This document shows positions 1 through 64,000 of a stretch of DNA of 64,000 nucleotides, one piece after another. Under the pieces are notes generated by a model. The model was given only the letters and a program-made list of their open reading frames with translations, had not been told where the DNA came from and did no database searches. Position 1 is the stretch's first letter; the number at the start of each line of letters is the position of its first letter. Source of the DNA: Brachyhypopomus gauderio (lineage: Eukaryota; Chordata; Actinopteri; Gymnotiformes; Hypopomidae); contig NC_135212.1 of assembly GCF_052324685.1 (NCBI RefSeq), positions 49,689,898-49,753,897 of the forward strand, read 5' to 3'. The translations under genes were made by a program, and so were the position numbers.

Positions 1-27
1 TCCCCATAACCTCTCGGCCACCACGTC
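1..27 (-). tRNA. tRNA-Ser(GCT)-type gene, 5' part only, cut by the window edge
   Basis: Only the acceptor 5' strand and D arm are inside the window. The acceptor 5' strand carries a change (accacgtc on the + strand instead of acctcgtc) and the D stem reads like the damaged copy at 802. The remainder lies to the left of the window. It shows that the array continues beyond this edge. Confidence 0.8.
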
Positions 28-81
28 GTTTGTGGTTGTGTGTCGATTGCGATTTCAAAGATGCAAACACTTTCACAGCAC

Positions 82-85
82 AAAA
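82..85 (-). terminator. Distal T4 pol III terminator in the spacer (recurs in every unit)
   Basis: The + strand acaaaag gives TTTT on the tRNA strand 75 bp past the 3' end of the gene at 160. Most units have only TTTCTTT next to the gene, which is not a canonical run of four or more T, so this is the first ordinary terminator reached. In some units it is T6 (agcaaaaaagaagg, for example near 1363). Confidence 0.5.
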
Positions 86-95
86 GGAGGCTTAT

Positions 96-1953: not shown

Positions 1954-2513
1954 GTTTGTGCTTGTGTGTCGATTGCGATTTCAAAGATGCAAACACTTTC
2001 ACAGCACAAAAGCAGCCGTATCTGACTTGTGGGTACTGCACTTACACCAGGAGACATGATTGTCAGAAATTAAAGAAAGCAACACCGACGAAGGTGGGAT
2101 TCGAACCCACGCGTGCTATGCACAATGGATTAGCAGTCCATCGCCTTAACCTCTCGGCCACCTCGTCAATTACGGTTGTGTGTCGATTGCGATTTCAAAG
2201 ATGCAAATACTTTCACAGCACAAAAGGAGGCGTATCTGACTTGTGGGTCCTACACTTATATCAGGAGACACGATGGTCAGAAATTAAAGAAAGCAACACC
2301 GACGAAGGTGGGATTCGAACCCACGCGTGCTATGCACAATGGATTAGCAGTCCATCGCCTTAACCTCTCGGCCACCTCGTCGTTTGTGGTTGTGTGTCGA
2401 TAGCAATTTCAAAGAAGCAAACACTTTCACAGCACAAAAGAAGGCTTTTCTGACTTGTGGGTCCTGTAGTTACAGCAGGAGACACGATTGTCAGAAATTA
2501 AAGAAAGCAACAC

Positions 2514-5377: not shown

Positions 5378-8300
5378 AATTACGGTTGTGTGTCGATTGC
5401 GATTTCAAAGATGCAAACACTTTCACAGCACAAAAGGAAGCTTGTCTGACTTGTGGGTCCTGCACTTACATCAGGAGACACGATTGTCAGAAATTTAAAA
5501 AAGCAACACCGACGAAGGTGGGATTCGAACCCACGCGAGCTATGCAAAATGGATAAGCAGTCCATCACCTTAACCTCTAGGCCACCTCGTCGTTTGTGGT
5601 TGTGTGTCGATAGCAATTTCAAAGAAGCAAACACTTTCACAGCAAAAAAGAAGGCTTTTTTGACTTGTGGGTCCTGCACTTACATCAGGAGACACGATTG
5701 TCAGAAATTTAAAAAAGCAACACCGACGAAGGTGGGATTCGAACCCACGCGTGCTATGCAAAATTGATTAGCAGTCCATCACCTTAACCTCTAGGCCACC
5801 TCGTCATTTGTGGTTGTGTGTCGATTGCGATTTCAAAGATGCAAACACTTTCACAGCACAAAAGAAGGCTTATCTGACTTGTGGGTCCTGCACTTACACC
5901 AGGAGACACGATTGTCAGAAATTAAAGAAAGCAACACCGACGAAGGTGGGATTCGAACCCACGCGTGCTATGCACAATGGATTAGCAGTCCATCGCCTTA
6001 ACCTCTCGGCCACCTCGTCAATTACGGTTGTGTGTCGATTGCGATTTCAAAGATGCAAATACTTTCACAGCACAAAAGGAGGCGTATCTGACTTGTGGGT
6101 CCTGCACTTATATCAGGAGACACGATGGTCAGAAATTAAAGAAAGCAACACCGACGAAGGTGGGATTCGAACCCACGCGTGCTATGCACAATGGATTAGC
6201 AGTCCATCGCCTTAACCTCTCGGCCACCTCGTCGTTTGTGGTTGTGTGTCGATAGCAATTTCAAAGAAGCAAACACTTTCACAGCACAAAAGAAGGCTTT
6301 TCTGACTTGTGGGTCCTGTAGTTACAGCAGGAGACACGATTGTCAGAAATTAAAGAAAGCAACACCGACGGAGGTGGGATTCGAACACACACGTGCTATG
6401 CATAATGGATTAGCAGTCCATCGCCTTAATCTATCCGCCACCTTGTCGTTTGTGCTTGTGTGTCGATTGCGATTTCAAAGATGCAAACACTTTCACAGCA
6501 CAAAAGCAGCCGTATCTGACTTGTGGGTACTGCACTTACACCAGGAGACATGATTGTCAGAAATTAAAGAAAGCAACACCGACGAAGGTGGGATTCGAAC
6601 CCACGCGTGCTATGCACAATGGATTAGCAGTCCATCGCCTTAACCTCTCGGCCACCTCGTCAATTACAGTTGTGTGTCGATTGCGATTTCAAAGATGCAA
6701 ACACTTTCACAGCACAAAAGGAGGCTTATCTGACTTGTGGGTCCTGCACTTACTTCAGGAGACACGATTGTCAGAAATTAAAGAAAACAACACCGACGAA
6801 TGTGGTATACAAACCCACGCGTGCAAAGCACAATGGATTAGCAGTCCATCGCCTTAACCTCTTGGCTACCTCGTCGCTTGTGGTTTTGTGTCGATTGCGA
6901 TTTCAAAGATGCAAACACTTTCACAGCACAAAAGCAGCCGTATCTGACTTGTGGGTACTGCACTTACACCAGGAGACACGATTGTCAGAAATTAAAGAAA
7001 GCAACACCGACGAAGGTGGGATTCGAACCCACGCGTGCTATGCATAATGGATTAGCAGTCCATCTCCTTAACCTCTCGGCCACCTCGTCAATCACGGTTG
7101 TGTGTCGATTGCGATTTCAAAGATGCAAACACTTTCACAGCACAAAAGGAGGCTTGTCTGACTTGTGGGTCCTGCACTTACATCAGGAGACACGATTGTC
7201 AGAAATTTAAAAAAGCAACACCGACGAAGGTGGGATTCGAACCCACGCGAGCTATGCAAAATGGATAAGCAGTCCATCACCTTAACCTCTAGGCCACCTC
7301 GTCGTTTGTGGTTGTGTGTCGATAGCAATTTCAAAGAAGCAAACACTTTCACAGCACAAAAGAAGGCTTTTTTGACTTGTGGGTCCTGCACTTACATCAG
7401 GAGACACGATTGTCAGAAATTTAAAAAAGCAACACCGACGAAGGTGGGATTCGAACCCACGCGTGCTATGCAAAATTGATTAGCAGTCCATCACCTTAAC
7501 CTCTAGGCCACCTCGTCGTTTGTGGTTGTTTGTCGATTGCGATTTCAAAGATGCAAACACTTTCACAGCACAAAAGAAGGCTTATCTGACTTGTGGGTCC
7601 TGCACTTACACCAGGAGACACGATTGTCAGAAATTAAAGAAAGCAACACCGACGAAGGTGGGATTCTAACCCACGCGTGCTATGCACAATGGATTAGCAG
7701 TCCATCGCCTTAACCTCTCGGCCACCTCGTCAATTACGGTTGTGTGTCGATTGCGATTTCAAAGATGCAAATACTTTCACAGCACAAAAGGAGGCGTATC
7801 TGACTTGTGGGTCCTGCACTTATATCAGGAGACACGATGGTCAGAAATTAAAGAAAGCAACACCGACGAAGGTGGGATTCGAACCCACGCGTGCTATGCA
7901 CAATGGATTAGCAGTCCATCGCCTTAACCTCTCGGCCACCTCGTCGTTTGTGGTTGTGTGTCGATAGCAATTTCAAAGAAGCAAACACTTTCACAGCACA
8001 AAAGAAGGCTTTTCTGACTTGTGGGTCCTGTAGTTACAGCAGGAGACACGATTGTCAGAAATTAAAGAAAGCAACACCGACGAAGGTGGGATTCGAACCC
8101 ACGCGTGCAAAGCACAATGGATTAGCAGTCGATCACCTTAACCTCTCGGCCACCTCATCGTTTGTGGTTGTGTGTCGATAGCAATTTCAAAGAAGCAAAC
8201 ACTTTCACAGCACAAAAGAAGGCTTTTCTGACTTGTGGGTCCTGTAGTTACAGCAGGAGACACGATTGTCAGAAATTAAAGAAAGCAACACCGACGGAGG

Positions 8301-11300
8301 TGGGATTCGAACACACACGTGCTATGCATAATGGATTAGCAGTCCATCGCCTTAATCTATCCGCCAGCTTGTCGTTTGTGCTTGTGTGTCGATTGCGATT
8401 TCAAAGATGCAAACACTTTCACAGCACAAAAGCAGCCGTATCTGACTTGTGGGTACTGCACTTACACCAGGAGACATGATTGTCAGAAATTAAAGAAAGC
8501 AACACCGACGAAGGTGGGATTCGAACCCACGCGTGCTATGCACAATGGATTAGCAGTCCATCGCCTTAACCTCTCGGCCACCTCGTCAATTACAGTTGTG
8601 TGTCGATTGCGATTTCAAAGATGCAAACACTTTCACAGCACAAAAGGAGGCTTATCTGACTTGTGGGTCCTGCACTTACTTCAGGAGACACGATTGTCAG
8701 AAATTAAAGAAAACAACACCGACGAATGTGGTATACAAACCCACGCGTGCAAAGCACAATGGATTAGCAGTCCATCGCCTTAACCTCTTGGCTACCTCGT
8801 CGCTTGTGGTTTTGTGTCGATTGCGATTTCAAAGATGCAAACACTTTCACAGCACAAAAGCAGCCGTATCTGACTTGTGGGTACTGCACTTACACCAGGA
8901 GACACGATTGTCAGAAATTAAAGAAAGCAACACCGACGAAGGTGGGATTCGAACCCACGCGTGCTATGCATAATGGATTAGCAGTCCATCTCCTTAACCT
9001 CTCGGCCACCTCGTCAATCACGGTTGTGTGTCGATTGCGATTTCAAAGATGCAAACACTTTCACAGCACAAAAGGAGGCTTGTCTGACTTGTGGGTCCTG
9101 CACTTACATCAGGAGACACGATTGTCAGAAATTTAAAAAAGCAACACCGACGAAGGTGGGATTCGAACCCACGCGAGCTATGCAAAATGGATAAGCAGTC
9201 CATCACCTTAACCTCTAGGCCACCTCGTCGTTTGTGGTTGTGTGTCGATAGCAATTTCAAAGAAGCAAACACTTTCACAGCACAAAAGAAGGCTTTTTTG
9301 ACTTGTGGGTCCTGCACTTACATCAGGAGACACGATTGTCAGAAATTTAAAAAAGCAACACCGACGAAGGTGGGATTCGAACCCACGCGTGCTATGCAAA
9401 ATTGATTAGCAGTCCATCACCTTAACCTCTAGGCCACCTCGTCGTTTGTGGTTGTTTGTCGATTGCGATTTCAAAGATGCAAACACTTTCACAGCACAAA
9501 AGAAGGCTTATCTGACTTGTGGGTCCTGCACTTACACCAGGAGACACGATTGTCAGAAATTAAAGAAAGCAACACCGACGAAGGTGGGATTCTAACCCAC
9601 GCGTGCTATGCACAATGGATTAGCAGTCCATCGCCTTAACCTCTCGGCCACCTCGTCAATTACGGTTGTGTGTCGATTGCGATTTCAAAGATGCAAACAC
9701 TTTCACAGCACAAAAGGAAGCTTGTCTGACTTGTGGGTCCTGCACTTACATCAGGAGACACGATTGTCAGAAATTTAAAAAAGCAACACCGACGAAGGTG
9801 GGATTCGAACCCACGCGAGCTATGCAAAATGGATAAGCAGTCCATCACCTTAACCTCTAGGCCACCTCGTCGTTTGTGGTTGTGTGTCGATAGCAATTTC
9901 AAAGAAGCAAACACTTTCACAGCAAAAAAGAAGGCTTTTTTGACTTGTGGGTCCTGCACTTACATCAGGAGACACGATTGTCAGAAATTTAAAAAAGCAA
10001 CACCGACGAAGGTGGGATTCGAACCCACGCGTGCTATGCAAAATTGATTAGCAGTCCATCACCTTAACCTCTAGGCCACCTCGTCGTTTGTGGTTGTGTG
10101 TCGATTGCGATTTCAAAGATGCAAACACTTTCACAGCACAAAAGAAGGCTTATCTGACTTGTGGGTCCTGCACTTACACCAGGAGACACGATTGTCAGAA
10201 ATTAAAGAAAGCAACACCGACGAAGGTGGGATTCGAACCCACGCGGGCTATGCACAATGGATTAGCAGTCCATCGCCTTAACCTCTCGGCCACCTCGTCA
10301 ATTACGGTTGTGTGTCGATTGCGATTTCAAAGATGCAAATACTTTCACAGCACAAAAGGAGGCGTATCTGACTTGTGGGTCCTGCACTTATATCAGGAGA
10401 CACGATGGTCAGAAATTAAAGAAAGCAACACCGACGAAGGTGGGATTCGAACCCACGCGTGCTATGCACAATGGATTAGCAGTCCATCGCCTTAACCTCT
10501 CGGCCACCTCGTCGTTTGTGGTTGTGTGTCGATAGCAATTTCAAAGAAGCAAACACTTTCACAGCACAAAAGAAGGCTTTTCTGACTTGTGGGTCCTGTA
10601 GTTACAGCAGGAGACACGATTGTCAGAAATTAAAGAAAGCAACACCGACGGAGGTGGGATTCGAACACACACGTGCTATGCATAATGGATTAGCAGTCCA
10701 TCGCCTTAATCTATCCGCCACCTTGTCGTTTGTGCTTGTGTGTCGATTGCGATTTCAAAGATGCAAACACTTTCACAGCACAAAAGCAGCCGTATCTGAC
10801 TTGTGGGTACTGCACTTACACCAGGAGACATGATTGTCAGAAATTAAAGAAAGCAACACCGACGAAGGTGGGATTCGAACCCACGCGTGCTATGCACAAT
10901 GGATTAGCAGTCCATCGCCTTAACCTCTCGGCCACCTCGTCAATTACAGTTGTGTGTCGATTGCGATTTCAAAGATGCAAACACTTTCACAGCACAAAAG
11001 GAGGCTTATCTGACTTGTGGGTCCTGCACTTACTTCAGGAGACACGATTGTCAGAAATTAAAGAAAACAACACCGACGAATGTGGTATACAAACCCACGC
11101 GTGCAAAGCACAATGGATTAGCAGTCCATCGCCTTAACCTCTTGGCTACCTCGTCGCTTGTGGTTTTGTGTCGATTGCGATTTCAAAGATGCAAACACTT
11201 TCACAGCACAAAAGCAGCCGTATCTGACTTGTGGGTACTGCACTTACACCAGGAGACACGATTGTCAGAAATTAAAGAAAGCAACACCGACGAAGGTGGG

Positions 11301-15700: not shown

Positions 15701-16851
15701 CACAAAAGAAGGCTTATCTGACTTGTGGGTCCTGCACTTACACCAGGAGACACGATTGTCAGAAATTAAAGAAAGCAACACCGACAAAGGTGGGATTCGA
15801 ACCCACGCGTGCTATGCACAATGGATTAGCAGTCCATCGCCTTAACCTCTCGGCCACCTCGTCGTGTGTGGTTGTGTGTCGATAGCAATTTCAAAGAAGC
15901 AAACACTTTCACAGCACAAAAGAAGGCTTTTCTGACTTGTGGGTCCTGTAGTTACAGCAGGAGATACGATTGTCAGAAATTAAAGAAAGCAACACCGACG
16001 GAGGTGGGATTCGAACACACACGTGCTATGCATAATGGATTAGCAGTCCATCGCCTTAATCTATCCGCCACCTTGTCGTTTGTGCTTGTGTGTCGATTGC
16101 GATTTCAAAGATGCAAACACTTTCACAGCACAAAAGCAGCCGTATCTGACTTGTGGGTACTGCACTTACACCAGGAGACATGATTGTCAGAAATTAAAGA
16201 AAGCAACACCGACGAAGGTGGGATTCGAACCCACGCGTGCTATGCACAATGGATTAGCAGTCCATCGCCTTAACCTCTCGGCCACCTCGTCAATTACGGT
16301 TGTGTGTCGATTGCGATTTCAAAGATGCAAATACTTTCACAGCACAAAAGGAGGCGTATCTGACTTGTGGGTCCTGCTCTTATATCAGGAGACACGATTG
16401 TCAGAAATTAAAGAAAGCAACACCGACGAAGGTGGGATTCGAACCCACGCGTGCAAAGCACAATGGATTAGCAGTCCATCGCCTTAACCTCTCGGCCACC
16501 TCGTCAATTATGGTTGTGTGTCGATTGTGATTTCAAAGATGCAAACACTTTCACAGCACAAAAGCAGGCTTGTCTGACTTGTGGGTCCTGCACTTACATC
16601 AGGAGACACGATTGTCAGAAATTAAAAAAAGCAACACCGACGAAAGTGGGATTCGAACCCACGCGTGCAAAGCACAATGGATTAGCAGTCCATCGCCTTA
16701 ACCTCTCGGCCACCTCGTCGTTTGTGGTTGTGTGTCGATAGCAATTTCAAAGAAGCAAGCACTTTCACAGCACAAAAGAAGGCCTTTCTGACTTGTGGGT
16801 CCTGTAGTTACAGCAGGAGACACGATTGTCAGAAATTAAAGAAAGCAACAC

Positions 16852-16933
16852 CGACGAAGGTGGGATTCGAACCCACAAGTGCTATGCATAATGGATTAGC
16901 AGTCCATCGCCTTACCCTCTCGGCCACCTTGTC
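16852..16933 (-). pseudogene. tRNA-Ser(GCT) pseudogene class 6: acceptor A4-C69, altered D loop
   Basis: ccaccttgtc on the + strand gives acceptor pair A4-C69, cttaccc changes the D loop and removes its TTAA, and cccacaagtg changes the variable/T junction. The T arm and both boxes are kept. Same class at 18136, 19420, 26482, 31479, 32977, 37968, 42462, 47384, 49096, 52092, 53804, 57656 and 63220. Confidence 0.65.
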
Positions 16934-17279
16934 GTTTGTGGTTGTGTGTCGATTGCGATTTCAAAGATGCAAACACTTTCACAGCACAAAAGAAGGCTTA
17001 TCTGACTTGTGGGTCCTGCACTTACACCAGGAGACACAATTGTCAGAAATTAAAGAAAGCAACACCGACGAAGGTGGGATTCGAACCCACGCGTGCTATG
17101 CACAATGGATTAGCAGTCCATCGCCTTAACCTCTCGGCCACCTCGTCGTGTGTGGTTGTGTGTCGATAGCAATTTCAAAGAAGCAAACACTTTCACAGCA
17201 CAAAAGAAGGCTTTTCTGACTTGTGGGTCCTGTAGTTACAGCAGGAGACACGATTGTCAGAAATTAAAGAAAGCAACAC

Positions 17280-17361
17280 CGACGAAGGTGGGATTCGAAC
17301 ACACACGTGCTATGCATAATGGATTAGCAGTCCATCGCCTTAATCTATCGGCCACCTTGTC
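17280..17361 (-). pseudogene. tRNA-Ser(GCT) pseudogene class 5b: acceptor and T-stem damage, ctatcgg D arm
   Basis: A milder relative of class 5. The D stem pairs normally, but acceptor pair 4-69 is A-C, the T stem has a T-C mismatch, and the A box is altered. Same class at 18564, 19848, 26910, 31907, 33405, 38396, 39038, 42890, 47812, 52520, 55088 and 63648. A sub-class that also has gacgga starts at 45458, 45886, 50166, 50594, 61294 and 61722. Confidence 0.75.
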
Positions 17362-20300
17362 GTTTGTGCTTGTGTGTCGATTGCGATTTCAAAGATGCAA
17401 ACACTTTCACAGCACAAAAGCAGCCGTATATTACTTGTGGGTCCTGCACTTACAACAGGAGACACGATTGTCAGAAATTAAAGAAAGCAACACCGACGAA
17501 GGTGGGATTCTAACCCACGCGTGCTATGCATAATGGATTAGCAGTCCATCGCCTTAACCTCTCGGCCACCTCGTCAATTACGGTTGTGTGTCGATTGCGA
17601 TTTCAAAGATGCAAATACTTTCACAGCACAAAAGGAGGCGTATCTGACTTGTGGGTCCTGCTCTTATATCAGGAGACACGATTGTCAGAAATTAAAGAAA
17701 GCAACACCGACGAAGGTGGGATTCGAACCCACGCGTGCAAAGCACAATGGATTAGCAGTCCATCGCCTTAACCTCTCGGCCACCTCGTCAATTATGGTTG
17801 TGTGTCGATTGTGATTTCAAAGATGCAAACACTTTCACAGCACAAAAGCAGGCTTGTCTGACTTGTGGGTCCTGCACTTACATCAGGAGACACGATTGTC
17901 AGAAATTAAAAAAAGCAACACCGACGAAGGTGGGATTCGAACCCACGCGTGCAAAGCACAATGGATTAGCAGTCCATCGCCTTAACCTCTCGGCCACCTC
18001 GTCGTTTGTGGTTGTGTGTCGATAGCAATTTCAAAGAAGCAAGCACTTTCACAGCACAAAAGAAGGCCTTTCTGACTTGTGGGTCCTGTAGTTACAGCAG
18101 GAGACACGATTGTCAGAAATTAAAGAAAGCAACACCGACGAAGGTGGGATTCGAACCCACAAGTGCTATGCATAATGGATTAGCAGTCCATCGCCTTACC
18201 CTCTCGGCCACCTTGTCGTTTGTGGTTGTGTGTCGATTGCGATTTCAAAGATGCAAACACTTTCACAGCACAAAAGAAGGCTTATCTGACTTGTGGGTCC
18301 TGCACTTACACCAGGAGACACAATTGTCAGAAATTAAAGAAAGCAACACCGACGAAGGTGGGATTCGAACCCACGCGTGCTATGCACAATGGATTAGCAG
18401 TCCATCGCCTTAACCTCTCGGCCACCTCGTCGTGTGTGGTTGTGTGTCGATAGCAATTTCAAAGAAGCAAACACTTTCACAGCACAAAAGAAGGCTTTTC
18501 TGACTTGTGGGTCCTGTAGTTACAGCAGGAGACACGATTGTCAGAAATTAAAGAAAGCAACACCGACGAAGGTGGGATTCGAACACACACGTGCTATGCA
18601 TAATGGATTAGCAGTCCATCGCCTTAATCTATCGGCCACCTTGTCGTTTGTGCTTGTGTGTCGATTGCGATTTCAAAGATGCAAACACTTTCACAGCACA
18701 AAAGCAGCCGTATATTACTTGTGGGTCCTGCACTTACAACAGGAGACACGATTGTCAGAAATTAAAGAAAGCAACACCGACGAAGGTGGGATTCTAACCC
18801 ACGCGTGCTATGCATAATGGATTAGCAGTCCATCGCCTTAACCTCTCGGCCACCTCGTCAATTACGGTTGTGTGTCGATTGCGATTTCAAAGATGCAAAT
18901 ACTTTCACAGCACAAAAGGAGGCGTATCTGACTTGTGGGTCCTGCTCTTATATCAGGAGACACGATTGTCAGAAATTAAAGAAAGCAACACCGACGAAGG
19001 TGGGATTCGAACCCACGCGTGCAAAGCACAATGGATTAGCAGTCCATCGCCTTAACCTCTCGGCCACCTCGTCAATTATGGTTGTGTGTCGATTGTGATT
19101 TCAAAGATGCAAACACTTTCACAGCACAAAAGCAGGCTTGTCTGACTTGTGGGTCCTGCACTTACATCAGGAGACACGATTGTCAGAAATTAAAAAAAGC
19201 AACACCGACGAAGGTGGGATTCGAACCCACGCGTGCAAAGCACAATGGATTAGCAGTCCATCGCCTTAACCTCTCGGCCACCTCGTCGTTTGTGGTTGTG
19301 TGTCGATAGCAATTTCAAAGAAGCAAGCACTTTCACAGCACAAAAGAAGGCCTTTCTGACTTGTGGGTCCTGTAGTTACAGCAGGAGACACGATTGTCAG
19401 AAATTAAAGAAAGCAACACCGACGAAGGTGGGATTCGAACCCACAAGTGCTATGCATAATGGATTAGCAGTCCATCGCCTTACCCTCTCGGCCACCTTGT
19501 CGTTTGTGGTTGTGTGTCGATTGCGATTTCAAAGATGCAAACACTTTCACAGCACAAAAGAAGGCTTATCTGACTTGTGGGTCCTGCACTTACACCAGGA
19601 GACACAATTGTCAGAAATTAAAGAAAGCAACACCGACGAAGGTGGGATTCGAACCCACGCGTGCTATGCACAATGGATTAGCAGTCCATCGCCTTAACCT
19701 CTCGGCCACCTCGTCGTGTGTGGTTGTGTGTCGATAGCAATTTCAAAGAAGCAAACACTTTCACAGCACAAAAGAAGGCTTTTCTGACTTGTGGGTCCTG
19801 TAGTTACAGCAGGAGACACGATTGTCAGAAATTAAAGAAAGCAACACCGACGAAGGTGGGATTCGAACACACACGTGCTATGCATAATGGATTAGCAGTC
19901 CATCGCCTTAATCTATCGGCCACCTTGTCGTTTGTGCTTGTGTGTCGATTGCGATTTCAAAGATGCAAACACTTTCACAGCACAAAAGCAGCCGTATATT
20001 ACTTGTGGGTCCTGCACTTACAACAGGAGACACGATTGTCAGAAATTAAAGAAAGCAACACCGACGAAGGTGGGATTCTAACCCACGCGTGCTATGCACA
20101 ATGGATTAGCAGTCCATCCCCTTAACCTCTCGGCCACCTCGTCGTTTGTGGTTGTGTGTCGATTGCGATTTCAAAGATGCAAACACTTTCACAGCACAAA
20201 AGGAGGCTTATCTGACTTGTGGGTCCTGCACTTATATCAGGAGACACGATTGTCAGAAATTAAAGAAAGCAACACCGACGAAGGTGGGATTCGAACCCAC

Positions 20301-23300: not shown

Positions 23301-26300
23301 GCTATGCATAATGGATTAGCAGTCCATCGCCTTAACCTCTCGGCCACCTCGTCGTTTGTGGTGGTGTGTCGATTGCGATTTCAAAGATGCAAACACTTTC
23401 ACAGCACAAAAGGAGGCTTATCTGACTTGTGGGTCCTGCACTTATATAAGGAGACACAATTGTCAGAAATTAAAGAAAGCAACACCGACGAAGGTAGGAT
23501 TCAAACCCACGCATGCTATGCACAATGGATTAGCAGTCCATCGCCTTAACCTCTCGGCCACCTCGTTGTTTGTGGTGGTGTGTCGATTGCGATTTCAAAG
23601 ATGCAAACACTTTCACAGCACAAAAGGAGGCTTATCTGACTTGTGGGTCCTGCACTTATATAAGGAGACACGATTGTCAGAAATTAAAGAAAGCAACACC
23701 GACGAAGGTAGGATTCGAACCCACGCATGCTATGCACAATGGATTAGCAGTCCATCGCCTTAACCTCTCGGCCACCTCGTTGTTTGTGGTGGTGTGTCGA
23801 TTGCGATTTCAAAGATGCAAACACTTTCACAGCACAAAAGGAGGCTTATCTGACTTGTGGGTCCTGCTCTTATATCAGGAGACACGATTGTCAGAAATTA
23901 AAGAAAGCAACACCGACGAAGGTGGGATTCGAACCCACGCGTGCTATGCACAAGGGATTAGCAGTCCATCGCCTTAACCTCTCGGCCACCTCGTCAATTA
24001 CAGTTGTGTGTCGATTGCGATTTCAAAGATGCAAACACTTTCACAGCACAAAAGGAGGCTTATCTGACTTGTGGGTCCTGCACTTACTTCAGGAGACACG
24101 ATTGTCAGAAATTAAAGAAAACAACACCGACGAATGTGGTATTCAAACCCACGCGTGCAAAGCACAATGGATTAGCAGTCCATCGCCTTAACCTCTTGGC
24201 TACCTCGTCGCTTGCGGTTTTGTGTCGATTGCGATTTCAAAGATGCAAACACTTTCACAGCACAAAAGCAGGCTTGTCTGACTTGTGGGTCCTGCACTTA
24301 CATCAGGAGACACGATTGTCAGAAATTAAAAAAAGCAACACCGACGAAGGTGGGATTCGAACCCACGCGTGCAAAGCACAATGGATTAGCAGTCCATCGC
24401 CTTAAGCTCTCGGCCACCTCGTCGTTTGTGGTTGTGTGTCGATAGCAATTTCAAAGAAGCAAGCACTTTCACAGCACAAAAGAAGGCCTTTCTGACTTGT
24501 GGGTCCTGTAGTTACAGCAGGAGACACGATTGTCAGAAATTAAAGAAAGCAACACCGACGAAGGTGGGATTCGAACCCACGCGTGCTATGCACAATGGAT
24601 TAGCAGTCCATCGCCTTAACCTCACGCCCACCTCGTCAATTACGGTTGTGTGTCGATTGCGATTTCAAAGATGCAAATACTTTCACAGCACAAAAGGAGG
24701 CTTATCTGACTTGTGGGTCCTGCACTTATATCAGGAGACACGATTGTCAGAAATTAAAGAAAGCAACACCGACGAAGGTGGGATTCGAACCCACGCGTGC
24801 TATGCACAATGGATTAGCAGTCCATTGCCTTAACCTCTCGGCCACCTCGTCGTTTGTGGTTGTGTGTCGATAGCAATTTCAAAGAAGCAAACACTTTCAC
24901 AGCACAAAAGCAGCCGTATATGACTTGTTGGTCCTGCACTTACAACAGGAGACACGATTGTCAGAAATTAAAGAAAGCAACACAGACGAAGGTGGGATTC
25001 GAACCCACGCGTGCTATGCACAATGGATTAGCAGTCCATCCCCTTAACCTCTTGGCCACCTCGTCGTTTGTGGTTGTGTGTCGATTGCGATTTCAAAGAT
25101 GCAAACACTTTCACAGCACAAAAGGAGGCTTATCTGACTTGTGGGTCCTGCACTTATATCAGGAGACACGATTGTCAGAAATTAAAGAAAGCAACACCGA
25201 CGAAGGTGGGATTCGAACCCACGCGTGCTATGCACAATGGATTAGCAGTCCATCGCCTTAACCTCTCGGCCACCTCGTCAATTACAGTTGTGTGTCGATT
25301 GCGATTTCAAAGATGCAAACACTTTCACAGCACAAAAGGAGGCTTATCTGACTTGTGGGTCCTGCACTTATATCAGGAGACACGATTGTCAGAAATTAAA
25401 GAAAACAACACCGACGAAGGTGGGATTCGAACCCACGCGTGCTATGCACAATGGATTAGCAGTCCATCGCCTTAACCTCTCGGCCACCTCGTCAATTACA
25501 GTTGTGTGTCGATTGCGATTTCAAAGATGCAAACACTATCACAGCACAAAAGGAGGCTTATCTGACTTGTGGGTCCTGCACTTATATCAGGAGACACGAT
25601 TGTCAGAAATTAAAGAAAGCAACACCGACGAAGGTGGGATTCGAACCCACGCGTGCTATGCACAATGGATTAGCAGTCCATCGCCTTAACCTCTCGGCCA
25701 CCTCGTCGTTTGTGGTTGTGTGTCGATAGCAATTTCAAAGAAGCAAACACTTTCACAGCACAAAAGCAGCCGTATATGACTTGTTGGTCCTGCACTTACA
25801 ACAGGAGACACGATTGTCAGAAATTAAAGAAAGCAACACCGACGAAGGTGGGATTCGAACCCACGCGTGCTATGCACAATGGATTAGCAGTCCATCGCCT
25901 TAACCTCTCGGCCACCTCGTCAATTATGGTTGTGTGTCGATTGCGATTTCAAAGATGCAAACACTTTCACAACACAAAAGCAGGCTTGTCTGACTTGTGG
26001 GTCCTGCACTTACATCAGGAGACACGATTGTCAGAAATTAAAAAAAGCAACACCGACGAAGGTGGGATTCGAACCCACACGTGCAAAGCACAATGGATTA
26101 GCAGTCCATCGCCTTAACCTCTCGGCCACCTCGTCAATTATGGTTGTGTGTCGATTGTGATTTCAAAGATGCAAACACTTTCACAGCACAAAAGCAGGCT
26201 TGTCTGACTTGTGGGTCCTGCACTTACATCAGGAGACACGATTGTCAGAAATTAAAAAAAGCAACACCGACGAAGGTGGGATTCGAACCCACGCGTGCAA

Positions 26301-27749
26301 AGCACAATGGATTAGCAGTCCATCGCCTTAACCTCTCGGCCACCTCGTCGTTTGTGGTTGTGTGTCGATAGCAATTTCAAAGAAGCAAGCACTTTCACAG
26401 CACAAAAGAAGGCCTTTCTGACTTGTGGGTCCTGTAGTTACAGCAGGAGACACGATTGTCAGAAATTAAAGAAAGCAACACCGACGAAGGTGGGATTCGA
26501 ACCCACAAGTGCTATGCATAATGGATTAGCAGTCCATCGCCTTACCCTCTCGGCCACCTTGTCGTTTGTGGTTGTGTGTCGATTGCGATTTCAAAGATGC
26601 AAACACTTTCACAGCACAAAAGAAGGCTTATCTGACTTGTGGGTCCTGCACTTACACCAGGAGACACGATTGTCAGAAATTAAAGAAAGCAACACCGACA
26701 AAGGTGGGATTCGAACCCACGCGTGCTATGCACAATGGATTAGCAGTCCATCGCCTTAACCTCTCGGCCACCTCGTCGTGTGTGGTTGTGTGTCGATAGC
26801 AATTTCAAAGAAGCAAACACTTTCACAGCACAAAAGAAGGCTTTTCTAACTTGTGGGTCCTGTAGTTACAGCAGGAGACACGATTGTCAGAAATTAAAGA
26901 AAGCAACACCGACGAAGGTGGGATTCGAACACACACGTGCTATGCATAATGGATTAGCAGTCCATCGCCTTAATCTATCGGCCACCTTGTCGTTTGTGCT
27001 TGTGTGTCGATTGCGATTTCAAAGATGCAAACACTTTCACAGCACAAAAGCAGCCGTATATTACTTGTGGGTCCTGCACTTACAACAGGAGACACGATTG
27101 TCAGAAATTAAAGAAAGCAACACCGACGAAGGTGGGATTCTAACCCACGCGTGCTATGCACAATGGATTAGCAGTCCATCGCCTTAACCTCTCGGCCACC
27201 TCATCGTTTGTGGTTGTGTGTCGATAGCAATTTCAAAGAAGCAAACACTTTCACAGCACAAAAGAAGGCTTTTCTGACTTGTGGGTCCTGTAGTTACAGC
27301 AGGAGACACGATTGTCAGAAATTAAAGAAAGCAACACCGACGGAGGTGGGATTCGAACACACACGTGCTATGCATAATGGATTAGCAGTCCATCGCCTTA
27401 ATCTATCCGCCACCTTGTCGTTTGTGCTTGTGTGTCGATTGCGATTTCAAAGATGCAAACACTTTCACAGCACAAAAGCAGCCGTATCTGACTTGTGGGT
27501 ACTGCACTTACACCAGGAGACATGATTGTCAGAAATTAAAGAAAGCAACACCGACGAAGGTGGGATTCGAACCCACGCGTGCTATGCACAATGGATTAGC
27601 AGTCCATCGCCTTAACCTCTCGGCCACCTCGTCAATTACGGTTGTGTGTCGATTGCGATTTCAAAGATGCAAATACTTTCACAGCACAAAAGGAGGCGTA
27701 TCTGACTTGTGGGTCCTGCTCTTATATCAGGAGACACGATTGTCAGAAA

Positions 27750-27753
27750 TTAA
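27750..27753. other. TTAA target site, left of element copy 1
   Basis: The spacer normally reads aaattaaagaaagc. Here the TTAA is followed by the element's CCCT end, and a second TTAA at 31035-31038 resumes the spacer as aaagaaagc. This is the exact signature of piggyBac insertion. Confidence 0.93.
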
Positions 27754-27768
27754 CCCTCCTGTCGTGTT
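27754..27768 (+). repeat. 5' terminal inverted repeat, element copy 1
   Basis: CCCTCCTGTCGTGTT. Compared with the reverse complement of the other end (CCCTTCGGTTTTGTT) it matches at 11 of 15 positions, with the outer four perfect. Confidence 0.8.
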
Positions 27769-27770
27769 CG

Positions 27771-27784
27771 GGTCAAATCTGACC
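27771..27784. repeat. Subterminal palindrome GGTC-N6-GACC, first
   Basis: GGTCAAATCTGACC, 17 bp inside the 5' end. The same arms recur at 27949 and 30977, so it is a candidate transposase binding site. Counterpart in copy 2 at 34266-34279. Confidence 0.6.
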
Positions 27785-27948
27785 GATTTACAACTTAAAC
27801 CGCTCATAAATATTGTGTTTTACATCTGATTGCTGCAAGGCCTTATGCCATCCTCCACACTATGCACTGGAACATATAAAAGTGATGATCATCTTTTTCA
27901 TTGAATTTTGAGTGTTTTAAACCAACGTTTTACATCTGTGTTGTTGCC

Positions 27949-27962
27949 GGTCAAATGTGACC
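27949..27962. repeat. Subterminal palindrome GGTC-N6-GACC, second
   Basis: GGTCAAATGTGACC differs from the first palindrome by one base in the centre. Counterpart in copy 2 at 34444-34457. Confidence 0.6.
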
Positions 27963-28031
27963 GTCACAGGAAATGAATGGGTATTCAGAATATATTCATC
28001 TATCAGATAGAAAACATCCCCATACAAACTC

Positions 28032-28062
28032 TCACACACACACACCTACACACACACACACT
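28032..28062 (+). repeat. Interrupted CA microsatellite in element copy 1
   Basis: CA dinucleotides interrupted once by cta. The same tract is present in copy 2 at 34527-34557. Confidence 0.8.
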
Positions 28063-28793: not shown

Positions 28794-28801
28794 TATTTAT
28801 A
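28794..28801 (+). promoter_or_regulatory. TATA-like box before the transposase, copy 1
   Basis: TATTTATA 40 bp before the first ATG of the transposase. An initiation site about 30 bp downstream would leave a very short leader, so the true start may lie elsewhere. Counterpart in copy 2 at 35289-35296. Confidence 0.35.
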
Positions 28802-28840
28802 GCTTGATGTTTGCCTTGCACTCCTTTTACTCTGAGCACA

Positions 28841-30683: not shown

Positions 30684-30699
30684 ATTCACATGCGCGTGT

Positions 30700-30700
<1 letters not shown>

Positions 30701-34248: not shown

Positions 34249-34263
34249 CCCTCCTGTCGTGTT
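34249..34263 (+). repeat. 5' terminal inverted repeat, element copy 2
   Basis: Identical to the 5' end of copy 1 and paired with 37509-37523. Confidence 0.8.
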
Positions 34264-35335: not shown

Positions 35336-37178
35336 ATGAGTAGGCGACTGACCAAGAGGTTTTCTGTTGAAGAGGTTCTGGTCCAGGTTTTTGGACATGA
35401 TGAAGAGGGCAATGAAATTCAACCAGAGATAGAGGAGGATGTCTCGGAGGTGGAAGACAACATGGATATAGATCTAGACTTGGAGGAGACTGACGAGTCA
35501 ACAGATGGAGAGGGAGAAGCACTTGAACAGGCACCTGAGGAGAGATTTCAGTCCAAGAGTGGACACCTGCTCTGGTCTTCATCCCCCCAGGACAGAAGAT
35601 GTAGAACGGGAGTCGAAAACATCATAAAGATGACGCCAGGGCCAACACGGTATGCAACATCTCGTGTGGATGACATCAAGTCCAGCTTCCAACTCTTTTT
35701 ACCAGAGTCTATTGAGGGAATTATACTAGAGATGACTAACCTAGAGGGGAAGCGTGTGTTTGGCGACACCTGGGGAGAAATTGACCAGGTAGACCTTCAA
35801 GCCTACATAGGTTTGCTGATTTTAGCCGGAGTGTATCGCTCAAACCATGAATCTACTAAAGGTCTGTGGGATGCAGAGGATGGTAGGCCTGTATTCCGGG
35901 CAACCATGTCCTTACAGCAATTTCATATCCTTTCAAGAATTATTCGATTTGATAACAGAGATACACGACCCGTCCGCTGGCGAAATGACAAACTGGCTGC
36001 CATCAGGAAAATTTGGGACAGGTGGGTGGAGCGGCTACCACTAATGTACAATCCAGGCCCAGAGGTGACCGTTGATGAGCGCCTGGTTCCCTTCAGAGGT
36101 CGCTGTTCTTTCAAAGTGTACATTCCAAGCAAACCAGGCAAATACGGAATAAAGATCTGGGCAGCCTGTGATGCCAGGAGCAGCTATGCCTGGAATATGC
36201 AGGTATACCTGGGTAAAGACAGTACTGGAAGGGCTGAAAAAAACCAGGGCATGCGTGTTGTGCTGGACATGACAACCGGTCTCCAAGGACATAATATCAC
36301 ATGCGACAATTTCTTCACATCGCATGCTCTTGGCCAGGAGCTGCTGAAGAGAAAGCTCACCATGGTAGGGACAGTGAGGAAGAACAAGCCTGAACTTCCC
36401 CCTGCACTGGTATTGACCAGAGGAAGAGACACACTGTCATCTAAATTTGCTTTCACTGACACACACACTGTTGTGTCATATGTGCCCAAGAAAAATAAAA
36501 ATGTGATCCTGATGAGCACGCTACATAAAGATGCTGCTGTCAGCACCACAGAGGACAAGAAACCTCTTATCATCCAGGACTACAATAAGAACAAAGGAGG
36601 AGTGGACTGCCTTGATAAGGTAATGCAAAGTTTCATCCATCATGTATTTTATTTTAATTTATGTGAATCATAGCATTTTGTGTATGACAGATTCAATATT
36701 GTTCCCAATCACTTATTTATTGTTCCTTTTATTGCAGCTTACTGGTACATACACCTGCAAGCGGATGACAGCTCGCTGGCCTGTGGCACTGTTCCACAAC
36801 ATGCTTGATGTGTCTGCGTTCAACGCATATGTGGTGTGGACAGCTATCAACCCAACCTGGAACCAGGGGAAGAGTTACAAGAGGAGACTTTTCCTAGCAG
36901 AGCTGGGAAAAGCTTTGGTGACTCCTCTTATTCAAAGGCGCCAGTACATCCCCCGCACACCAGCCTCTGCCAGTCTGGTAAGGAGTCTGCAAGCCACAGC
37001 CCCAGCCCCAGCCCCAGCCCTGGCTGCTCTCCCCCAACAAGGGCATGGACAGAAAAGGAAGCGCTGTGGGCTCTGTGTCCCTAGAGACAACAAGTCAAGC
37101 CTGAGATGCAGCAAATGTTATGCCTATGTTTGCAAGGCCCACTCTGATCTGAGTGTGACATGCCACTCATGTGCATGA
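35336..37178 (+). CDS. PGBD4-like piggyBac transposase, copy 2 (two exons, 574 aa)
   Basis: Exon 1 is 35336-36619, intron 36620-36737, exon 2 36738-37178. Both exons translate to the same protein as copy 1, with the same catalytic aspartates (247, 324, 424) and C5HC2 zinc domain. Two intact, identical copies 6.5 kb apart mean that the duplication is too young for mutations to have gathered in the coding region, or that the copies are kept alike by exchange. Either copy could supply transposase to both sets of ends. Confidence 0.93.
36620..36737 (+). other. Intron of the transposase gene, copy 2 (118 bp)
   Basis: Same GT-AG borders, polypyrimidine tract and in-frame stop (36671-36673) as in copy 1. 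Confidence 0.85.
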
Positions 37179-37194
37179 ATTCACATGCGCGTGT

Positions 37195-37195
<1 letters not shown>

Positions 37196-37250
<55 letters not shown>
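37196..37250 (+). repeat. CA microsatellite, element copy 2
   Basis: CA tract ending in one caaacacac interruption. It is the shorter allele of the tract at 30701-30761. Confidence 0.9.
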
Positions 37251-37407
37251 CGTGTTGAGTTTGGTTTTTTTTTTTTTTTTTTTTCTTCATTACATGTTCC
37301 TTTTGTAATATATTTTCAGTGCATTTGTATTTTCTCTAGATATTTTATGTGTAATTCTATAAATTCGTGTTAACTATCTGATATGTTGTTAACAGTGAAA
37401 AGTGTTT

Positions 37408-37422
37408 AATAAAACCAATAAA
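37408..37422 (+). terminator. Overlapping poly(A) signals of the transposase mRNA, copy 2
   Basis: AATAAA at 37408-37413 and 37417-37422, as in copy 1. Confidence 0.7.
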
Positions 37423-37508
37423 TTTGGTGGTGAATTTTTTTTTTTTTTGTGTGTTAAAACAGACCGGTCTTTGTAGACCGGGAACACTACAGTAAGAAAC
37501 GTAAGGTC

Positions 37509-37523
37509 AACAAAACCGAAGGG
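37509..37523 (-). repeat. 3' terminal inverted repeat, element copy 2
   Basis: Identical to the 3' end of copy 1, with the A4 run at 37512-37515. Confidence 0.8.
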
Positions 37524-38799
37524 TTAAAGAAAGCAACACCGACGAAGGTGGGATTCGAACCCACGCGTGCAAAGCACAATGGATTAGCAGTCCATCGCCT
37601 TAACCTCTCGGCCACCTCGTCAATTATGGTTGTGTGTCGATTGTGATTTCAAAGATGCAAACACTTTCACAGCACAAAAGCAGGCTTGTCTGACTTGTGG
37701 GTCCTGCACTTACATCAGGAGACACGATTGTCAGAAATTAAAAAAAGCAACACCGACGAAGGTGGGATTCGAACCCACGCGTGCAAAGCACAATGGATTA
37801 GCAGTCCATCGCCTTAACCTCTCGGCCACCTCGTCGTTTGTGGTTGTGTGTCGATAGCAATTTCAAAGAAGCAAGCACTTTCACAGCACAAAAGAAGGCC
37901 TTTCTGACTTGTGGGTCCTGTAGTTACAGCAGGAGACACGATTGTCAGAAATTAAAGAAAGCAACACCGACGAAGGTGGGATTCGAACCCACAAGTGCTA
38001 TGCATAATGGATTAGCAGTCCATCGCCTTACCCTCTCGGCCACCTTGTCGTTTGTGGTTGTGTGTCGATTGCGATTTCAAAGATGCAAACACTTTCACAG
38101 CACAAAAGAAGGCTTATCTGACTTGTGGGTCCTGCACTTACACCAGGAGACACAATTGTCAGAAATTAAAGAAAGCAACACCGACGAAGGTGGGATTCGA
38201 ACCCACGCGTGCTATGCACAATGGATTAGCAGTCCATCGCCTTAACCTCTCGGCCACCTCGTCGTGTGTGGTTGTGTGTCGATAGCAATTTCAAAGAAGC
38301 AAACACTTTCACAGCACAAAAGAAGGCTTTTCTGACTTGTGGGTCCTGTAGTTACAGCAGGAGACACGATTGTCAGAAATTAAAGAAAGCAACACCGACG
38401 AAGGTGGGATTCGAACACACACGTGCTATGCATAATGGATTAGCAGTCCATCGCCTTAATCTATCGGCCACCTTGTCGTTTGTGCTTGTGTGTCGATTGC
38501 GATTTCAAAGATGCAAACACTTTCACAGCACAAAAGCAGCCGTATATGACTTGTGGGTCCTGCACTTACAACAGGAGACACGATTGTCAGAAATTAAAGA
38601 AAGCAACACCGACGAAGGTGGGATTCGAACCCACGCATGCTATGCACAATGGATTAGCAGTCCATCGCCTTAACCTCTCGGCCACCTCGTTGTTTGTGGT
38701 GGTGTGTTGATTGCGATTTCAAAGATGCAAACACTTTCACAGCACAAAAGGAGGCTTGTCTGACTTGTGGGTCCTGCACTTACATCAGGAGACACGATT

Positions 38800-59367: not shown

Positions 59368-59449
59368 CGACGAAGGTGGGATTCGAACCCACGCGTGCTA
59401 TGCAAAATGGATTAGCAGTCCATCACCTTAACCTCTAGGCCACCTCGTC
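59368..59449 (-). tRNA. tRNA-Ser(GCT) copy intermediate between the consensus and pseudogene classes 1 and 2
   Basis: It has the T6 terminator, the ctctagg D arm, catcacc and gcaaaatgg features of classes 1 and 2, but keeps the normal anticodon loop CTGCTAA and normal anticodon stem. The remaining faults are one variable-stem mismatch and a G-T D-stem pair. It may be the ancestor of the class 1/2 pair or a recombinant between them. Confidence 0.65.
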
Positions 59450-62400
59450 GTTTGTGGTTGTGTGTCGATAGCAATTTCAAAGAAGCAAACACTTTCACAG
59501 CACAAAAGAAGGCTTTTTTGACTTGTGGGTCCTGTAGTTACAGCAGGAGACACGATTGTCAGAAATTAAAGAAAGCAACAACGACGAAGGTGGGATTCGA
59601 ACCCAAACGGGCTATGCATAATGGATTAGCAGTCCATCGCCTTAATCTCTCGGCCACCTTGTCGTTTGTGGTTGTGTGTCGATTGCGATTTCAAAGATGC
59701 AAACACTTTCACAGCACAAAAGCAGCCGTATATGACTTGTGGGTACTGCACTTACAACAGGAGACACGATTGTCAGAAATTAAGGAAAGCAACACCGACG
59801 AAGGTGGGATTCGAACCCACGCGTGCTATGCACAATGGATTAGCAGTCCATCGCCTTAACCTCTCGGCCACCTCGTCAATTACAGTTGTGTGTCGATTGC
59901 GATTTCAAAGATGCAAACACTTTCACAGCACAAAAGGAGGCTTATCTGACTTGTGGGTCCTGCACTTACTTCAGGAGACACGATTGTCAGAAATTAAAGA
60001 AAACAACACCGACGAATGTGGTATTCAAACCCACGCGTGCAAAGCACAATGGATTAGCAGTCCATCGCCTTAACCTCTTGGCTACCTCGTCGCTTGTGGT
60101 TTTGTGTCGATTGCGATTTCAAAGATGCAAACACTTTCACAGCACAAAAGCAGCCGTATCTGACTTGTGGGTACTGCACTTACACCAGGAGACACGATTG
60201 TCAGAAATTAAAGAAAGCAACACCGACGAAGGTGGGATTCGAACCCACGCGTGCTATGCATAATGGATTAGCAGTCCATCTCCTTAACCTCTCGGCCACC
60301 TCGTCAATCACGGTTGTGTGTCGATTGCGATTTCAAAGATGCAAAGACTTTCACAGCACAAAAGGAGGCTTGTCTGACTTGTGGGTCCTGCACTTACATC
60401 AGGAGACACGATTGTCAGAAATTTAAAAAAGCAACACCGACGAAGGTGGGATTCGAACCCACGCGAGCTATGCAAAATGGATAAGCAGTCCATCACCTTA
60501 ACCTCTAGGCCACCTCGTCGTTTGTGGTTGTGTGTCGATAGCAATTTCAAAGAAGCAAACACTTTCACAGCACAAAAGAAGGCTTTTTTGACTTGTGGGT
60601 CCTGCACTTACATCAGGAGACACGATTGTCAGAAATTTAAAAAAGCAACACCGACGAAGGTGGGATTCGAACCCACGCGTGCTATGCAAAATTGATTAGC
60701 AGTCCATCACCTTAACCTCTAGGCCACCTCGTCGTTTGTGGTTGTTTGTCGATTGCGATTTCAAAGATGCAAACACTTTCACAGCACAAAAGAAGGCTTA
60801 TCTGACTTGTGGGTCCTGCACTTACACCAGGAGACACGATTGTCAGAAATTAAAGAAAGCAACACCGACGAAGGTGGGATTCTAACCCACGCGTGCTATG
60901 CACAATGGATTAGCAGTCCATCGCCTTAACCTCTCGGCCACCTCGTCAATTATGGTTGTGTGTCGATTGCGATTTCAAAGATGCAAATACTTTCACAGCA
61001 CAAAAGGAGGCGTATCTGACTTGTGGGTCCTGCACTTATATCAGGAGACACGATGGTCAGAAATTAAAGAAAGCAACACCGACGAAGGTGGGATTCGAAC
61101 CCACGCGTGCTATGCACTATGGATTAGCAGTCCATCGCCTTAACCTCTCGGCCACCTCGTCGTTTGTGGTTGTGTGTCGATAGCAATTTCAAAGAAGCAA
61201 ACACTTTCACAGCACAAAAGAAGGCTTTTCTGACTTGTGGGTCCTGTAGTTACAGCAGGAGACACGATTGTCAGAAATTAAAGAAAGCAACACCGACGGA
61301 GGTGGGATTCGAACACACACGTGCTATGCATAATGGATTAGCAGTCCATCGCCTTAATCTATCGGCCACCTTGTCGTTTGTGCTTGTGTGTCGATTGCGA
61401 TTTCAAAGATGCAAACACTTTCACAGCACAAAAGCAGCCGTATATGACTTGTGGGTCCTGCACTTACAACAGGAGACACGATTGTCAGAAATTAAAGAAA
61501 GCAACACCGACGAAGGTGGGATTCGAACCCACGCATGCTATGCACAATGGATTAGCAGTCCATCGCCTTAACCTCTCGGCCACCTCATTGTTTGTGGTGG
61601 TGTGTCGATTGCGATTTCAAAGATGCAAACACTTTCACAGCACAAAAGAAGGCTTTTCTGACTTGTGGGTCCTGTAGTTACAGCAGGAGACACGATTGTC
61701 AGAAATTAAAGAAAGCAACACCGACGGAGGTGGGATTCGAACACACACGTGCTATGCATAATGGATTAGCAGTCCATCGCCTTAATCTATCGGCCACCTT
61801 GTCGTTTGTGCTTGTGTGTCGATTGCGATTTCAAAGATGCAAACACTTTCACAGCACAAAAGCAGCCGTATATGACTTGTGGGTCCTGCACTTACAACAG
61901 GAGACACGATTGTCAGAAATTAAAGAAAGCAACACCGACGAAGGTGGGATTCGAACCCACGCATGCTATGCACAATGGATTAGCAGTCCATCGCCTTAAC
62001 CTCTCGGCCACCTCATTGTTTGTGGTGGTGTGTCGATTGCGATTTCAAAGATGCAAACACTTTCACAGCACAAAAGGAGGCTTATCTGACTTGTGGGTCC
62101 TGCACTTATATCAGGAGACACGATTGTCAGAAATTAAAGAAAGCAACACCGACGAAGGTGGGATTCGAACCCACGCGTGCTATGCACAAGGGATTAGCAG
62201 TCCATCGCCTTAACCTCTCGGCCACCTCGTCAATTACAGTTGTGTGTCGATTGCGATTTCAAAGATGCAAACACTTTCACAGCACAAAAGGAGGCTTATC
62301 TGACTTGTGGGTCCTGCACTTACTTCAGGAGACACGATTGTCAGAAATTAAAGAAAACAACACCGACAAATGTGGTATTCAAACCCACGCAAGCAAAGCA

Positions 62401-64000
62401 CAATGGATTAGCAGTCCATTGCCTTAACCTCTTGGCTACCTCGTCGCTTGCGGTTTTGTGTCGATTGTGATTTCAAAGATGCAAACACTTTCACAGCACA
62501 AAAGCAGCCGTATCTGACTTGTGGGTCCTGCACTTACACCAGGAGACACGATTGTCAGAAATTAAAAAAAGCAACACCGACGAAGGTGGGATTCGAACAC
62601 ACGCGTGCTATGCACAATGGATAAGCAGTCCATCGCCTTAACCTCTCGGCCACCTCGTCAATTACGGTTGTGTGTCGATTGCGATTTCAAAGATGCAAAC
62701 ACTTTCACAACACAAAAGCAGGCTTGTCTGACTTGTGGGTCCTGCACTTACATCAGGAGACACGATTGTCAGAAATTAAAAAAAGCAACACCGACGAAGG
62801 TGGGATTCGAACCCACGCGTGCAAAGCACAATGGATTAGCAGTCCATCGCCTTAACCTCTCGGCCACCTCGTCAATTATGGTTGTGTGTCGATAGCAATT
62901 TCAAAGAAGCAAGCACTTTCACAGCACAAAAGAAGGCCTTTCTGACTTGTGGGTCCTGTAGTTACAGCAGGAGACACGATTGTCAGAAATTAAAGAAAGC
63001 AACACCGACGAAGGTGGGATTCGAACCCACGCGTGCTATGCACAATGGATTAGCAGTCCATCGCCTTAACCTCTCGGCCACCTCGTCAATTACAGTTGTG
63101 TGTCGATTGCGATTTCAAAGATGCAAATACTTTCACAGCACAAAAGGAGGCTTATCTGACTTGTGGGTCCTGCACTTATATCAGGAGACACGATTGTCAG
63201 AAATTAAAGAAAGCAACACCGACGAAGGTGGGATTCGAACCCACAAGTGCTATGCATAATGGATTAGCAGTCCATCGCCTTACCCTCTCGGCCACCTTGT
63301 CGTTTGTGGTTGTGTGTCGATTGCGATTTCAAAGATGCAAACACTTTCACAGCACAAAAGAAGGCTTATCTGACTTGTGGGTCCTGCACTTACACCAGGA
63401 GACACGATTGTCAGAAATTAAAGAAAGCAACACCGACGAAGGTGGGATTCGAACCCACGCGTGCTATGCACAATGGATTAGCAGTCCATCGCCTTAACCT
63501 CTCGGCCACCTCGTCGTGTGTGGTTGTGTGTCGATAGCAATTTCAAAGAAGCAAACACTTTCACAGCACAAAAGAAGGCTTTTCTGACTTGTGGGTCCTG
63601 TAGTTACAGCAGGAGACACGATTGTCAGAAATTAAAGAAAGCAACACCGACGAAGGTGGGATTCGAACACACACGTGCTATGCATAATGGATTAGCAGTC
63701 CATCGCCTTAATCTATCGGCCACCTTGTCGTTTGTGCTTGTGTGTCGATTGCGATTTCAAAGATGCAAACACTTTCACAGCACAAAAGCAGCCGTATATG
63801 ACTTGTGGGTCCTGCACTTACAACAGGAGACACGATTGTCAGAAATTAAAGAAAGCAACACCGACAAAGGTGGGATTCTAACCCACGCGTGCTATGCACA
63901 ATGGATTAGCAGTCCATCCCCTTAACCTCTCGGCCACCTCGTCGTTTGTGGTTGTGTGTCGATTGCGATTTCAAAGATGCAAACACTTTCACAGCACAAA

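Follow-up and report, generated by a model that had tools for sequence, protein, structure and literature searches.

Is a stretch of chromosome in which one transfer RNA (tRNA) gene recurs hundreds of times a cluster of genes, or a satellite whose repeat unit contains a gene? The question is raised by the DNA analysed here, a window of 64,000 nucleotides from contig NC_135212.1 of Brachyhypopomus gauderio (positions 49,689,898 to 49,753,897 of the forward strand), most of which is a tandem repeat of 214 bp carrying a gene for tRNA-Ser(GCT). Fish and some other eukaryotes possess thousands of tRNA genes of unclear use. From its sequence, the array most likely behaves as a satellite in which each repeat unit happens to include a tRNA gene. 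The reading that we consider probable is that of an RNA polymerase III tRNA-Ser(GCT) gene array which evolves as a satellite by unequal exchange, and in which a minority of the genes is strictly intact.

The tRNA-Ser(GCT) array

The presence of a tandem array of tRNA-Ser(GCT) genes was confirmed by several methods. ARAGORN, applied to the whole window, made 268 calls, every one a tRNA-Ser(GCT) on the minus strand, with a spacing of 214 bp except across two interruptions, while five dinucleotide-block shuffles of the window gave no tRNA genes. The Rfam tRNA model (RF00005) scored above its gathering threshold at 267 of the 268 genes when overlapping matches were taken once (128 within 1–27760, 15 in the middle segment, and 124 within 37500–64000). 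The sole miss is a degenerate copy at 8291–8366, and no Rfam family other than RF00005 exceeded the threshold in the three stretches that jointly cover the window. Tandem Repeats Finder (TRF) reported a period of 214 with 0% indels in segments 7–27753, 31035–34248, and 37524–64000, and a 214-bp grid accommodated 267 complete units, none altered in length.

The first segment (1–27753, minus strand; ARAGORN, TRF, unit grid, Rfam) consists of a partial unit at 1–143 and 129 complete units with one tRNA-Ser(GCT) gene each, and ends at a TTAA before the first of two transposons. The second (31035–34248, minus strand; TRF, Rfam, unit grid) has 15 complete units, and the third (37524–64000, minus strand; ARAGORN, TRF, unit grid, Rfam) includes 123 complete units along with a partial unit in which the 268th gene is located; this gene was excluded from the unit statistics, for which n is therefore 267. 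Since the partial units at the edges (143 bp on the left, 155 bp on the right) keep the phase of the grid, the array continues beyond both ends of the window, within which it occupies 57,444 bases. The strict 214-bp period, the single isotype and anticodon of the 268 genes, and an extent of at least 57 kb running off both edges had all been put forward in a preliminary description, and each was borne out. The array had also been said to extend across the window, which holds for 57.4 kb of tRNA units and overlooks the two 3.28-kb transposons that break it.

Within the unit, the gene takes up 82 sites (38% of the 214 bp) and the spacer 132. A nuclear tRNA-Ser(GCT), whose anticodon serves the AGC and AGU codons, is recognised by a cloverleaf with a long variable arm, the anticodon GCT, a discriminator G, and the lack of an encoded CCA. 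Judged from the sequence, the gene of the unit qualifies on each of these points, and presumably it resembles the tRNA-Ser(GCT) genes of vertebrates. The consensus gene pairs in all stems tested, the discriminator is G in 262 of the 267 units, and in the consensus unit no CCA directly follows the gene. An example at the consensus score, with 63.9 bits against RF00005, is located at 2300–2381 (minus strand).

The units are not identical. The 267 complete units reduce to 120 different sequences and their genes to 70, identity to the unit consensus averages 95.4% (range 90.7 to 99.1%), and the mean number of differences between two units is 15.4 over the 214 sites. Isodecoder differences among the genes include a variable arm of TGCATAGCA versus TGCTTTGCA. 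The homogeneity attributed earlier to the array is thus true of isotype and unit length, but not of the sequence of units and genes. By the definition in PMC2888827, a homogeneous tRNA gene (tDNA) cluster contains genes of one isoacceptor family less than 1000 nt apart. The array is such a cluster or, when the 1000-nt rule is applied throughout the window, three homogeneous clusters of 129, 15, and 124 genes.

CpG sites are approximately two to three times as variable as other sites in gene and spacer alike, and show transitions in 19 of 31 variants as compared with 36 of 102 elsewhere. This excess of variability and of transitions is the pattern that methylation would cause, and as such offers an indirect indication of it. 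For CpG, the observed/expected ratio stands at 1.2 for the consensus gene, at 0.51 for its spacer, and at 0.33 for the transposon. The spacer pattern has no exact match in the viral_contigs collection. Within the spacer, variation is lowest upstream of the gene, at approximately -59 to -20, a part that includes TGAAAGTGTTTGCATCTTTGAAAT. A conserved upstream element at this position is not claimed, the scan having given P values of 0.03 to 0.32, uncorrected, across five window sizes.

Growth by block duplication and exchange

The array has grown by duplication of multi-unit blocks through unequal exchange, and its units have traded sequence by crossover or conversion, as satellites do. Forty-two pairs of blocks were found, each at least five units long and with no more than 3 differences per unit, and they take in 234 of the 267 units. 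The longest pair has 23 units at a lag of 20 units and 10 differences in 4922 bases (0.20%), the second 21 units at a lag of 22 and a single difference in 4494 bases (0.02%), and the third 19 units at a lag of 74 and 5 differences in 4066 bases; among the 30 pairs of the 42 that were listed, divergence is 0–0.75%. What results is a patchwork of blocks duplicated within one another, with lags of 6, 11, 15, 20, 22, 52, and 74 units among others. A regular higher-order repeat was rejected, given that no single period holds array-wide, although lags such as 11, 20, 22, 52, and 74 have the lowest mean differences, so that the higher-order structure previously ascribed to the array exists as nested duplications of differing length and not as a single regular period. 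Single-unit slippage as the mode of growth is likewise not supported, because neighbouring units, which differ at 16.2 sites, are no closer to each other than random pairs, which differ at 15.4.

Units have also been reshuffled internally. All four combinations of alleles are present in 354 of 496 pairs of common variable sites, and linkage within units (r2) declines from 0.22 for sites less than 15 bp apart to 0.03 for those some 100 bp apart. One type of defective gene, with a score of 30.1 bits, is found seven times within 1–27760 and once at 33833, which is what hitchhiking on duplicated blocks would give. Satellites are marked by long head-to-tail arrays with concerted evolution and amplification of blocks, as well as by a position in heterochromatin, at centromeres, or near telomeres; on the first count, the window has 57.4 kb of array, duplicated blocks, and recombination within units. 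As a separate observation, the first mismatch at the edge of a duplicated block lies within the gene in 31 of 60 cases, where 34% would be expected. An enrichment of edges in the gene is not claimed, in view of the fact that the edges depend on one another and do not coincide with the actual breakpoints; an excess of this kind might arise where forks stall at tRNA genes.

The two interruptions are copies of a piggyBac transposon, an assignment based on the DDE_Tnp_1_7 transposase of copy 1 and on the TTAA present on both sides of both copies. Copy 1 (27754–31034, plus strand; 3.28 kb) has TTAA flanks at 27750–27753 and 31035–31038, and the ends CCCTCC... and ...GAAGGG. The long open part of its transposase gene, the first exon, occupies 28841–30178 (plus strand), and the matches obtained were to Pfam DDE_Tnp_1_7 (E value 6.1e-67), the transposase of PDB 6x67 (E value 4.7e-72), and piggyBat (PDB 9c0f; E value 2.6e-27). 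A short intron probably begins near 30125, as read from GT...AG-like ends, and the second open stretch, at approximately 30147–30683, matched no Pfam family by itself. The element may still be autonomous. Copy 2 (34249–37523, plus strand), recognised by its TTAA flanks and by comparison with copy 1, differs from the latter by one substitution and a 6-bp length change in a CA repeat. The TTAA used for insertion is in the trailer of the unit, and TTAA sites number two in 251 of the 267 units, one in 15, and three in one.

The surroundings of these copies record their history. A tandem duplication at 25610–38593, of 15 units plus the transposon, pairs 25610–32104 with 32105–38593 and shows 3 differences in 3210 array bases. 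The empty-site state is preserved in the same array, in a seven-unit block without the transposon (15980–17477, minus strand) which corresponds, apart from 2 differences in 1498 bases, to the array sequence joined across transposon 1. The near-identity of the copies, the empty site, and the duplicated block together indicate one insertion and a later co-duplication; the simplest history is therefore a single piggyBac insertion followed by tandem duplication of the 15 units carrying it.

The array probably arose from one tRNA-Ser(GCT) gene with about 130 bp of flanking DNA. Multi-unit blocks have been duplicated by unequal exchange, and the sequences of the units have been shuffled by crossover or gene conversion. 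One piggyBac insertion was captured and subsequently co-duplicated with 15 units. Any benefit of the array, e.g., bulk tRNA in oocytes, would act array-wide through the intact majority-type gene.

Condition of the genes and evidence for selection

Under a strict test, a gene was considered intact when the acceptor, D, anticodon, and T stems were paired and the A and B boxes were complete, the stem of the variable arm not being required. RNA polymerase III promoters of tRNA genes are characterised by the A and B box consensus that was used in this test. It was passed by 112 of the 267 genes (18 distinct sequences); the stems alone were complete in 126, the A box in 234, and the B box in 185. 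The strictly intact copies would be competent for RNA polymerase III. At least one defect in a stem or promoter box was found in the other 155 copies, and the earlier statement that the array is made of 268 genes, true of the 268 ARAGORN calls, is for this reason too strong. Altered positions include what we take to be C56 of the B box (44 units), G18/G19 (33 units), and A37 (15 units). There are two kinds of trailer, TTTCTTT in most units and runs of 4–7 T in others. The terminator of RNA polymerase III is a run of at least four T shortly behind the gene. Counted in the real downstream DNA, such a run occurs within 45 nt after the gene in 80 of the 267 units, and in 186 of 266 the nearest one is at a distance of 74 nt. 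If TTTCTTT terminates poorly, transcript length would be predicted to differ between units. We infer that the majority of copies are redundant, or else silent most of the time.

Selection on single copies was sought through gene and spacer diversity, rare versus common variants, a simulation of intactness, and changes that preserve pairing, and none of these gave a clear signal. There are 63 distinct variants over the 82 gene sites and 70 over the 132 spacer sites, so that the number per site is not lower in the gene. Nor is the gene depleted in variants seen in just one distinct unit (24 of 63, versus 21 of 70 in the spacer; Fisher P 0.36). Eighteen of the 70 distinct genes are intact, as compared with 14.8 ± 3.0 expected in simulations of uniform random change (P 0.18) and 15.1 ± 3.0 when CpG sites are weighted threefold (P 0.22). 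Pairing is kept in 6 of 32 distinct stem variants, versus an expectation of 18.5%, and compensating double changes among the distinct stem variants number zero. Intactness at the random rate and the lack of stem compensation mean that copy-level selection was not detected. The satellite behaviour that the preliminary description had inferred is supported by this decay of genes at a random rate, as well as by the block duplications and the reshuffling within units.

Several observations nevertheless weigh against an array of freely decaying genes. The anticodon GCT is unaltered in all 267 units. Mean variability per site is 3.65% for the gene and 5.17% for the spacer, a difference that favours mild constraint in the former, and the consensus gene sequence, intact by the strict test, is also the commonest, being present in 55 of the 267 complete units; taken together, these two features make weak selection at the level of the array possible. 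Intact distinct genes have on average 6.2 copies versus 3.0 for the others, a mean that drops to 3.4 without the consensus type. By a hand count, 204 of the 268 genes score at least 50 bits with RF00005, so that the strict test, which is severe in that a single stem mismatch need not disable a tRNA, may understate the number of working genes. Finally, 103 of the 214 columns are variable, yet indels are found in none of the 267 units, which is odd for unconstrained DNA. In neutral vertebrate DNA, indels typically accompany substitutions. The fixed length of the unit possibly reflects selection on spacing, or else exchange that purges length variants.

Alternative explanations and related arrays

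Arrays of tRNA genes are known from several genomes. The clustered fraction of tDNAs is 65% in zebrafish and 87% in stickleback (PMC2888827). The adjacent pairs in zebrafish clusters are, according to the same paper, mostly heterogeneous, whereas here 268 of 268 genes have one isotype and anticodon within one unit length. Zebrafish has tRNA arrays on the long arm of chromosome 4, and 5227 of its tRNA genes (60%) are on this chromosome (PMC11417395, PMC11075544, PMC11574265). These genes resemble the present array in being tRNA genes within highly repetitive DNA; CpG methylation of the large-cluster genes is near complete in early zebrafish embryos (PMC11574265), whereas the hint of methylation in the present array comes from CpG variation. 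From their methylation, we infer that most of the zebrafish cluster copies are silent at this stage. In the SYY cluster of Arabidopsis the tRNA genes are also in tandem, but it is a plant array of mixed tRNA-Ser and tRNA-Tyr genes and not of a single Ser(GCT) gene every 214 bp; it meets heterochromatin, and is silent in most tissues and active in special cells (PMC12308677). The human 1q23.3 variable number tandem repeat is similar in being an unstable tandem repeat with tRNA genes, and differs in its 7.3-kb units, present in 9–43 copies, of which tRNA makes up less than 6%, as compared with 38% here (PMC4041453). Arrays of tRNA genes are also reported at the end of blue catfish chromosome 14 (PMC10071708). 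Large tRNA clusters in fishes and other eukaryotes, which had been mentioned beforehand, are thus attested. Among the open-access papers listed by the literature searches, none was recognised by title or beginning of abstract as describing a single-isotype tRNA-Ser(GCT) satellite. The array is of a kind already known, particularly from fish, and is an unusually pure example of it.

Among the rivals to a satellite that evolves by unequal exchange, a maternal tRNA reserve has the most outside support. It is a plausible proposal and would be compatible with the satellite reading, and as an explanation in its own right we hold it to be a serious though minority possibility. The array would be of an oocyte type, amplified under selection for loading the egg with tRNA-Ser and silent in somatic cells, by analogy with the maternal 5S ribosomal RNA genes. 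In zebrafish, isodecoders present in eggs originate in highly repetitive DNA (PMC11417395), and a role as a maternal block has been put forward for the heterochromatic part of chromosome 4 (PMC11075544); in the present array the intactness of the commonest gene would suit such a role. The failure of 155 of 267 genes in the strict test and their decay at the random rate argue against it, as do the 187 of 267 units that lack a run of at least four T in the first 45 nt, many of which may terminate poorly, though the common trailer does have TTTCTTT. Alternatively, the array might be a structural satellite of the chromosome, in which RNA polymerase III genes serve as heterochromatin boundary, pericentromeric, or replication-pause DNA and not as a source of tRNA. 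Its strict unit length, without an indel in 267 units, would fit; tRNA tandem repeats such as the human 1q23.3 array are candidate boundary elements (PMC4041453), and the plant Ser/Tyr array intersects heterochromatin (PMC12308677). Yet the window gives no sign of where on the chromosome the array belongs, and the frequent changes in the A and B boxes would weaken binding of TFIIIC; this explanation is unlikely. A bolder version, on which we would place little confidence, is that a working tRNA gene has turned into a true chromosome satellite, kept for the effect on chromatin or replication of hundreds of phased RNA polymerase III promoters spaced 214 bp apart, or else for a single burst of transcription in the oocyte, while the coding content of most copies is free to decay; zero length change in 267 units would then bear witness to selection that acts on spacing and not on sequence.

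Two further explanations concern the assembly and the nature of the unit. A short tRNA cluster that was repeatedly collapsed and re-expanded during assembly could in principle have produced the longest of the nearly identical pairs, such as the 21 units with a single difference or the transposon block of 6.49 kb. With 120 distinct units, nested duplications of several lengths, and transposon copies that differ in CA-repeat length and one base, it is very improbable; the scattered differences between copies of duplicated blocks in particular make a long-read assembly artefact unlikely. That the units are instead a tandem short interspersed nuclear element (SINE) derived from a tRNA, or some other retro-element, is hardly credible. 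Many SINEs do have tRNA-like heads, but the tRNA is complete here, with the acceptor stem on both sides and the discriminator G described above, the complete units all share a homologous flank of 132 bp and follow one another in strict tandem order, and neither a poly-A tail nor a target-site duplication is seen in the consensus.

The array suggests that a tRNA gene count obtained by prediction (here 268) may overstate the strictly intact genes more than twofold. The passage from tRNA gene to satellite is cleanly recorded in this window, where one can read the sizes of the blocks, the order of events as marked by the transposon, and the proportions of intact and broken genes. If the array is maternal, it would permit testing whether satellite-like tRNA arrays feed the egg.

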